Shown here: piece by piece, positions 46,303 through 48,064 of the stretch | How positions within the stretch are numbered: the first letter of the stretch is position 1 | Layout: each line of letters opens with the position of its first letter | Origin: Veronia nyctiphanis | GTDB lineage: Bacteria > Pseudomonadota > Gammaproteobacteria > Enterobacterales > Vibrionaceae | Direction: 5' to 3' | DNA length: 64,000 nt | Assembly (NCBI RefSeq): GCF_004116385.1 | Contig: NZ_PEIB01000022.1 | Coordinates: forward strand, 1 to 64,000 | The notes under the pieces: model-generated | The model's database searches: none | Seen by the model: the letters and a program-made list of their open reading frames with translations, nothing else | What the model was told of the DNA's origin: nothing | Made by a program: the position numbers and the translations under genes

Positions 46303-46460
46303 ATAAGACCTTTTTGATGAGCAATATTTGAAATAGAACCAGTGACATTCCTTTAATAGTTGAAATATATCAATATTATTTACTCGTTCAGCTTTCTTAG
46401 CTTTTTTCATGATGAGCATTTAAGTCAAAATTTGATGTAAATAATACTTAAAGTCAGCCA

Positions 46461-46600
46461 TGTACAGCAATTAACGGAAAATACAGCTTTTAGGTGTAAT
46501 AAATTACAAGTATTTAGGTGGCGACAATAAAAATACATACTAATCATAAGCTTAATTGTACGTACAGCTTTTCCAGGTATTTTCCCTGTCTACCCTGTAT
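46461..46600 (+). repeat. TGTACAGC repeat element, copy 1 (diverged)
   Basis: TGTACAGCAATTAACGG at 46461 and CGTACAGCTTTTCCAGG at 46561 lie 100 bp apart, the spacing also seen in copies 2 and 3 (101 bp). The second motif leads into CAGG...CCCTG inverted bases. The whole stretch 46303-46681 is AT-rich and holds no gene. A third, weaker ATACAGCTTTT is at 46481. Confidence 0.6.
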
Positions 46601-46681
46601 AAGGAACTTAAGCTAGCAGGGAGAAGATCAAGATACGTGATAGAGTCAGACGTAGAACCACCGGCCAGAGGCCGATGGTAT

Positions 46682-46888
46682 TCAATCAAGCAGTTCGAAG
46701 ATTTTCTCAACAGGCAATTCAAAATGCCGGGCCAGTTTCAGCGCGATGACCACAGACGGCGTAAATCGTCCAGTCTCAATCGTGCTTATCGTTTTTCTGG
46801 AGACTCCAATTGCATCAGCCAACTCCTGCTGCGACAACTTGGTGCGACTGCGCAGTTTAGCAATATGGTTATCAAGTTCTTCATTCAT
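46682..46888 (-). CDS. XRE-family (Cro/CI-like) regulator, 68 aa
   Basis: A 68-residue protein that is one helix-turn-helix: SQQELADAIGVSRKTISTIE is the classical motif at about residues 19-38. No other domain. It overlaps the upstream membrane-protein gene by 8 bp (46881-46888), so the pair is translationally coupled. It probably binds the four phased GATACCT repeats upstream of the pair (47428-47503). Similar two-gene sets of an XRE-type regulator and a small membrane protein are widespread, and their roles are mostly unknown. Confidence 0.9.
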   Translation of the reverse strand: MNEELDNHIAKLRSRTKLSQQELADAIGVSRKTISTIETGRFTPSVVIALKLARHFELPVEKIFELLD

Positions 46889-47372
46889 CGTTTTCGCGTA
46901 ACCCCAATAGTACCGTGATCGAAAAACATAGGAGCATTAACCCCAGTAAGATAGTGATGCCATTACTGAGAAGGTCAATCGGTAGGGCCTCAATATCATC
47001 TGGTAAATACTTTGTTAAAATCAGCGCCAGAGTCAAAACCAGCATGGTTGCATAGCCGCTAATTACATAACCTTTGTGTGAGACCTGCGAAACATACTCG
47101 TCCTTGTGACGGTGCAGTATTCTGAAGTGCAGGCTTCTTGGAGCTGACTTGAGATAACTAAACAGATAAAACAACACCACAAAGCCACTGATCACTCGAA
47201 TACCGCCTAAGGTAAGTACAAACCAGTTAAGACCAGACCAGAGATTCAGCCAGTATCCCACCTCCGTGCTGCCGTAAAGAAGCAAATATAGCCCCACGAA
47301 CAAGCTCATTAATGCCTCTTTTCTTAATAACAAAAATTCCTTTTGTGCATTCGTCATTGTTGCTGTGTTCAT
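46881..47372 (-). CDS. Four-helix membrane protein coupled to the XRE gene
   Basis: A 163-residue protein starting at 47372, with AGAGGGA eight bases before the ATG. Four hydrophobic helices can be seen (SLFVGLYLLLYGS; WFVLTLGGIRVISGFVVLFYLF; GYATMLVLTLALILTKYL; GITILLGLMLLCFSITVLLGL), joined by a basic cytosolic-looking loop, SAPRSLHFRILHRHKDEY. I recognise no family. It is first in a two-gene operon with the regulator, so it may sense something and pass it to the regulator, or be its target. Confidence 0.78.
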   Translation of the reverse strand: MNTATMTNAQKEFLLLRKEALMSLFVGLYLLLYGSTEVGYWLNLWSGLNWFVLTLGGIRVISGFVVLFYLFSYLKSAPRSLHFRILHRHKDEYVSQVSHKGYVISGYATMLVLTLALILTKYLPDDIEALPIDLLSNGITILLGLMLLCFSITVLLGLRENDE

Positions 47373-47427
47373 TGCTTTTCCCTCTCAGTCAGAGTCTATT
47401 GAATTGTTATATCAACACAAGTTTTTT

Positions 47428-47503
47428 GATACCTTTAATTCCCAAATGATACCTAAAGCACTCATTTGACACCTTAGATACACAAAAGATACCTTAAGGT
47501 ATC
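47428..47503. promoter_or_regulatory. Four operator-like repeats with a 20-bp period
   Basis: GATACCT begins at 47428 and 47448, GACACCT at 47468, and GATACCT at 47488: exact 20-bp steps, about two helix turns, so all sit on one DNA face. The last is part of a perfect 16-bp palindrome GATACCTTAAGGTATC (47488-47503). They lie 56-131 bp upstream of the membrane-protein start, next to a possible -10 (TATAAC on the minus strand near 47407). They probably bind the XRE protein encoded downstream. Confidence 0.7.
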
Positions 47504-47615
47504 AACACGTTCAACTACACCCGCAATGTAAATCGCCAAAAAATAAACATAAATTAATGATTTAAATCGTAAATATTTACACTCCACTGAAATATCCATA
47601 TTTTGGCGTCAAACT

Positions 47616-47760
47616 CGTACAGCTTTTTTATAACTGAGCAGCAAAAAGATGAACTCACTTTGATCTAAAAAGAGAACCAATAGGTAAGACATTGAATAAT
47701 CGAGAATTAAAAAAGGTGTACAGCAATTCGAGGAATCTTCCTGATGAAGCTACCTGCCTT
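47616..47760 (+). repeat. TGTACAGC repeat element, copy 2
   Basis: Starts CGTACAGCTTTTTTAT and ends with TGTACAGCAATTCG (47717) plus the near-palindrome AGGAATCTTCCT. It aligns with copy 3 through CAGC-AAAAGATGA and ATTGAAT...AATTAAA. No reading frame spans it. The surrounding bases 47504-47893 hold no gene. Confidence 0.72.
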
Positions 47761-47893
47761 CTTCGATACGAAGATTGGTATCGATTAAGCCCTAGATTCC
47801 ATCACTCAGATGAGCATATTTACAACGTAGCTAAATCAAACCTGTCGTAATTATCTATTACTACATGGCTTAACCATTACGTATCAGTACGGA

Positions 47894-48034
47894 TGTACAG
47901 CTTTTTTATTGATAAACAGCGAAAAGATGAGCGGAATTTGGAAGTGATTTGAGATATGAAGATAAGGTATTGAATTTTATAAAATTAAAGCACATGTACA
48001 GCGATTTAAGGAATTTCCCCGGTAAAGGTATTCG
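47894..48034 (+). repeat. TGTACAGC repeat element, copy 3
   Basis: Starts TGTACAGCTTTTTTAT, 15 of 16 bases as in copy 2, with CAGCGAAAAGATGA next, and ends TGTACAGCGATTTAAGG (47995) followed by GGAATTTCC. The two TGTACAGC sites are 101 bp apart, exactly as in copy 2. It abuts the 3' hairpin of hemE. Confidence 0.72.
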
Positions 48035-48057
48035 CCACTCACACTTGCGAGTGGCGA
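48032..48057 (-). terminator. Hairpin after hemE
   Basis: TCGCCACTC and GAGTGGCGA form a perfect 9-bp stem with an 8-base loop, just past the hemE stop. On the minus strand the next bases (ATACCTTTACC) are only partly T, so it is a weak terminator. Confidence 0.6.
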
Positions 48058-48064
48058 CAGGGAA

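Follow-up and report, generated by a model that had tools for sequence, protein, structure and literature searches.

Here we present a two-gene operon of Veronia nyctiphanis that places a small XRE regulator and a four-helix membrane protein behind a row of putative operators, and whose sequence leads us to favor, with reasonable though far from full confidence, a membrane-sensing operon that represses itself. The operon was found in the window, that is, the whole stretch of 64,000 nucleotides analyzed (contig NZ_PEIB01000022.1, positions 1 to 64,000). With its relatives it probably makes up a family of membrane-sensing switches that has not been described before and whose design resembles that of a few known systems. 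A membrane-sensed switch had been suggested by the initial annotation of this DNA, and we infer the same.

Both genes lie on the minus strand, between a uracil-DNA-glycosylase-like gene and hemE, in a host genome of 5.29 Mb. The first gene of the operon (46881-47372), delimited by its open reading frame, by alignment and by an AlphaFold2 model, encodes the membrane protein of 163 residues. The second (46682-46888) encodes the 68-residue XRE regulator, a CylR2-like protein of the HTH_3 family (Pfam E-value 8.9e-13) with the recognition region VSRKTISTIE. The two frames overlap by the 8 bp ATGAATGA (46881-46888, minus strand), an overlap that recurs in 40 of 80 related loci and is likely to couple translation of the membrane gene to that of the regulator. 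The earlier description of a 68-residue XRE protein and a four-helix membrane protein sharing 8 bp is thus confirmed, the helices by AlphaFold2. The model (pLDDT 87.4, pTM 0.79) shows four long helices at residues 8-41, 49-76, 92-122 and 132-160. The loop between helices 2 and 3 carries a DEY motif and is basic, which by the positive-inside rule places it on the cytoplasmic side, and the C-terminal tail is acidic. A Pfam-type profile search with the membrane protein gave no family match above the cut-off, and a Foldseek comparison of the model with solved structures gave none at E < 1; the best VIA-align Z score was 5.2, a value of little meaning for a helical bundle, and no solved structure is clearly alike.

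Upstream of the operon lie four predicted operators, all read on the minus strand and each an 18-bp palindrome, mostly imperfect, with 2 bp separating neighbors. The outermost site, which falls at the predicted promoter, is near-perfect (TGATACCTTAAGGTATCT, 47487-47504) and contains the perfect palindrome GATACCTTAAGGTATC (47488-47503). It is followed toward the gene by TGTGTATCTAAGGTGTCA (47467-47484), TGAGTGCTTTAGGTATCA (47447-47464) and TGGGAATTAAAGGTATCA (47427-47444). Of the two half-sites, the right one, AGGTATCA, is strict, and the left one is degenerate in the second to fourth sites. GATACCT at 47428, 47448 and 47488 and GACACCT at 47468 set an exact spacing of 20 bp. Scored against four copies of AGGTATCA at this spacing, the array differs at 2 of 32 positions, and none of 300 local Markov shuffles comes closer than 11 mismatches. 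Across the 64-kb window and spacings from 9 to 60 bp, no other four-fold row with at most 4 mismatches was found, except the same array shifted by one unit, and GATACCT-N13-GATACCT occurs a single time in the 5.29-Mb genome. The row is far beyond chance, and both sequence and shuffles uphold the four evenly stepped GATACCT-type sites, the last with a perfect 16-bp palindrome, that had been reported. As a side observation, GATACCT occurs 19 times in the whole window, where shuffles predict 3.9. Outside the array lie 15 of the copies; codon usage may explain the excess.

Relatives were sought with the XRE protein as query, since the membrane protein finds none by blast-type search, whether among 247 same-family and 369 same-class genomes or in genome contigs, plasmids and phages. 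Eighty XRE relatives with 58-88 % identity were fetched from genome contigs of more than 20 genera, mostly of marine bacteria: Alteromonas, Bowmanella, Colwellia, Rheinheimera, Alkalimonas, Arsukibacterium, Pseudoalteromonas, Idiomarina and its allies, Thalassotalea, Psychrosphaera, Kangiella, Marinicella, Wenzhouxiangella, Kordiimonas and others. In 78 of the 80 the regulator gene is directly preceded by a membrane gene some 160 codons long, truncated or frameshifted in a few. The two exceptions are solo XRE genes of Aliidiomarina iranensis and A. maris, which have the same operators and no membrane gene (L054 2703-2762, L085 2928-2966); both genomes also hold a complete second pair. At three other loci, two or three different membrane genes stand in tandem before one XRE gene and the operators precede the first of them (L035 1548-3008, L059 1996-2992, L075 1958-3001).

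The blast-type search misses the membrane partners because they diverge too fast: across 76 loci the median pairwise identity is 66 % for the regulator and 16 % for its partner. The recognition segment VSRKTIS of the regulator is nearly invariant in these loci. Profile comparison nevertheless finds the partners homologous, the main group matching the Kordiimonas/Kangiella and Rheinheimera groups with probabilities of 97.9 % and 98.3 %. A DE[YFW] motif (DEY/DEF) is present in 62 of the 76 partners and absent from 14, chiefly in the Kordiimonas/Kangiella/Wenzhouxiangella group.

The operators are conserved too. The 18-bp palindrome TGWWACCTNNAGGTWWCA precedes the operon in 77 of 78 non-redundant loci, usually in two or three copies. 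In 72 of them a site with 15 or 16 of 16 scored positions falls within a fixed upstream window; in five of the remaining six the sites lie outside it, before the tandem membrane genes (L035, L059, L075) or before the solo XRE genes (L054, L085), and only L056, where the membrane gene seems to be frameshifted, has no site. Retention of the operators before the solo genes indicates that they follow the regulator, not the membrane gene. At the two strictest thresholds, site density upstream is 334 to 352 times that of the flanks. Ninety-five neighboring spacings within 80 bp were collected; Rayleigh statistics on them call for caution, as the loci share ancestry and sites of 18 bp cannot overlap. 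Of these spacings, 73 measure 19-21 bp, ten 31-33 bp, ten 40-42 bp, one 35 bp and one 68 bp. Thus 93 of the 95 correspond to two, three or four helical turns, and the argument for phasing lies in the 31-33 and 40-42 bp classes, which keep the phase, and in the lack of any spacing of 22-30 bp. The initial annotation had proposed to look for homologous pairs with phased upstream repeats, and its reading would have fallen had the pairs in relatives lacked these sites; pairs that have them are the rule. Separately, two such palindromes occur in a Sphingomonas plasmid pair whose XRE is 53 % identical (L128). They lie some 35-55 bases before the gene at 1085, and their spacing of 18 bp departs from the usual phase.

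In the window, the operator farthest from the gene coincides with a predicted sigma70 promoter (47486-47514, minus strand), composed of a -35 box TTGAAC (47509-47514), a 17-bp spacer and a -10 box TATCTT (47486-47491). The operator spans the -10 box and most of the spacer. The same layout, with the -10 box beginning at operator base +13, occurs in 19 relatives, and when the loci are aligned on their first operator many have TTG 7-10 bases upstream and a right half GGTATCAT that reads as a -10 box. With a strict definition (TTGNNN, 16-18 bp, TANNNT, at least 4 matches), a sigma70-like promoter overlaps the operator in 35 of 72 loci, compared to 1.1 % of random flank places and 3.7 % of shuffles; about half of the 72 have no recognizable promoter at the operator by this test. 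The relatives from Kordiimonas and Kangiella are arranged differently: their TTGACA-like box stands at a greater distance upstream, and the site falls at or just past the -10 box. Both layouts fit occlusion of RNA polymerase, from which we infer that the operon would be autorepressed. With sites conserved in 77 of 78 loci, 93 of 95 spacings in phase and operators overlapping the promoter, the earlier proposal of a helically phased row under autocontrol is strongly supported.

By a strict search, which degenerate sites would escape, the regulator seems to act chiefly on its own gene and that of its partner. Sites with zero mismatch were found in 14 of 15 relative genomes, all at the promoter of the pair except at one place (G625 C5:48334), and in the V. 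nyctiphanis genome the operon is the only strict match. A wider regulon in this genome was considered and set aside: one-mismatch sites are few, they do not clearly outnumber those of a reversed-pattern control, and at contig ends several turn out to be one and the same sequence. Nor does any neighboring gene recur across genera at the 80 loci as a candidate shared target.

Such near-confinement of strict sites to the operon's own promoter would also suit the main rival reading, that of a plain autorepressor with its effector, which we consider unlikely all the same. Here the XRE protein would only hold the level of the membrane protein constant, and the latter would act itself without any signal to the regulator, for instance in tolerance to a membrane-active compound, in the manner of an immunity protein. 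A similar XRE (42 %) from the lacticin 3147 cluster overlaps a gene of 116 codons (L134), known in the literature as the immunity gene ltnI. A membrane protein that diverges this fast would fit an effector exposed to varied targets, and the operons in which one XRE follows two or three membrane genes in tandem (L035, L059, L075) point the same way. However, the regulator is kept beside so divergent a partner, in frames that often overlap, and the partner retains an acidic motif in its loop, which together suggest direct contact between the two proteins; moreover, the XRE/membrane pairs that have been characterized do signal.

The pair is found within a low-GC interval, from the glycosylase-like gene to hemE (46303-48064), that also holds TGTACAGC-type repeats. 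None of the other 246 genomes of the same family, one congener included, has the XRE protein (E 1e-14) or the membrane protein (E 1e-5), so its earlier designation as accessory stands. The congener has the same interval without the pair, full of TACAGCTTTT repeats. The TGTACAGC/TACAGCTTTT cluster, which fills the interval before hemE (46399-48013 in the window, 1552-2684 in L121), looks like a genus-level intergenic repeat family. The TGTACAGC copies do flank the pair, as had been noted; given their presence in a congener that lacks it, they belong to the insertion site and are unrelated to the pair, which, judged by these surroundings, is an accessory insertion in a repeat-rich site.

Accessory status and a patchy distribution, along with a C1/RstR-type fold, could also describe an immunity switch of a phage or other mobile element. 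This is very improbable and mostly refuted by the flanks: no phage genes recur beside the pairs, and the XREs in phage records and viral contigs are all distant (42-48 %) and lack tandem operators. A toxin-antitoxin-like module, in which a membrane-acting toxin has the XRE protein as its repressor and antitoxin, under the kind of tandem operator row that many such modules have, would likewise be small, autoregulated and accessory, with two overlapping genes, and the XRE fold is common among antitoxins. We regard it as improbable and, like the phage reading, as poorly supported. The XRE protein is a bare helix-turn-helix that lacks a toxin-binding extension, it scores well below the cut-offs of the best antitoxin models (couple_hipB 40 bits versus 71.65, HigA 26.7 versus 47.7), and solo XREs exist. 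No membrane gene lacking an XRE came to light, though the relatives were collected by way of the XRE, a route that would not reveal one. PADLOC returns generic helix-turn-helix matches only, on which ground a defense system was also rejected.

We return to the membrane-sensing, autorepressed operon and outline how it may work. A dimer of the XRE protein would bind the abutting 18-bp palindromes cooperatively along one face of the helix and, by covering the -10 box, would repress its own promoter. The membrane protein would present two parts to the regulator, the cytoplasmic loop and the acidic tail. A change in the state of the membrane, or a ligand, would lead the membrane protein to sequester or alter the regulator, releasing the promoter so that both proteins rise, and the main output would be more membrane protein. 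Against this reading stand the loci with no recognizable promoter at the operator and the partners that lack the DEY motif. AyrRA and CylR control effector genes (a transporter and a toxin operon, respectively), and with no conserved extra gene here a sensor without output would be odd; the membrane protein may thus be the effector. Tentatively, we extend this to an undescribed and widespread proteobacterial signaling family in which the own operon might be the sole target, the membrane protein both sensor and output, and the phased row a means of converting sequestration of the regulator into a sharp, self-limiting pulse, as in a membrane homeostat.

Several known systems share parts of this design. 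The nearest characterized relative of solved structure is CylR2 (1utx), which the XRE profile matches over residues 3-62 (E-value 4.2e-18). In the cytolysin system of Enterococcus faecalis, CylR2 represses and CylR1 is required for induction by a mechanism that is unknown (PMC3709268). The 66-residue CylR2 belongs to the same sequence family and is likewise paired with a membrane protein, but CylR1 has three predicted helices compared to four here, and the CylR pair acts, from overlapping promoters, on a toxin operon that diverges from it, whereas here the operators are in tandem and there is no effector operon: no divergent cytolysin (lantibiotic) operon lies beside the pair in the window, and no neighbor recurs in the 80 loci as a possible shared target.

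In Staphylococcus aureus, AyrR represses its own operon and the polytopic DUF3169 protein AyrA is required to relay a membrane signal or stress, an arrangement that the authors put forward as a general two-component design (PMC5727409). Shared with our pair are a Cro-like repressor, here predicted to act on its own promoter as AyrR does, a polytopic partner and the D-E motif in an interhelix loop that is a feature of AyrA, seen here as DE[YFW] in the 62 of 76 partners and, in the window protein, in the helix 2-3 loop. AyrA differs in its six helices, in gene order and in having an ABC transporter in the operon, and DUF3169 was matched neither by the window protein nor, among the 25 families listed, by 38 partners. 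Six of these 38 touch DUF6442 weakly (best E-value 0.0072) and one matches DUF3796 (best E-value 5.6e-6), a family with no match in the V. nyctiphanis genome itself. In pairs of XRE with DUF2178, DUF6442 or DUF3796 from actinobacteria, firmicutes and archaea, a small XRE of 45-50 % identity overlaps a small membrane gene, and plasmids from Streptomyces and from a haloarchaeon carry smaller annotated XRE/DUF2178 pairs. Those examined are without the TGWWACC operator, except for the Sphingomonas plasmid pair, and in hhalign the window-type partners match the mixed partners of these pairs with a probability of 22.8 %.

The LytTR regulatory systems (HdrRM, BrsRM) are a widespread two-gene operon of a regulator and a membrane inhibitor, autoregulated through promoter repeats (PMC6193735). 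Their regulator is of the LytTR type, their repeats are direct and lie upstream of the -35 box, and their feedback is positive, whereas here the regulator is of the HTH_3 type, the sites are palindromes over the -10 box and the feedback is most likely negative.

No Pfam model covers the exact family, the main text of a survey of XRE motifs does not mention the motif (PMC12565409), and a literature search found no paper on the family, which is no proof that none exists. To this extent the system is undescribed, as had been suggested; pairing an XRE with a polytopic membrane protein is already known from CylR2/CylR1 and AyrR/AyrA, and the window pair has the design in common with the systems compared but does not carry the features that define any single one of them. 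With its relatives, isolated examples such as CylR and Ayr become a testable family in culturable marine bacteria, one whose regulator has an operator predicted to the base and whose partner diverges far faster than the regulator. Having few other strict sites, it reduces to a minimum the question of how a repressor that is no more than a helix-turn-helix comes under the control of a membrane protein, a question that CylR1 and AyrA raise as well.
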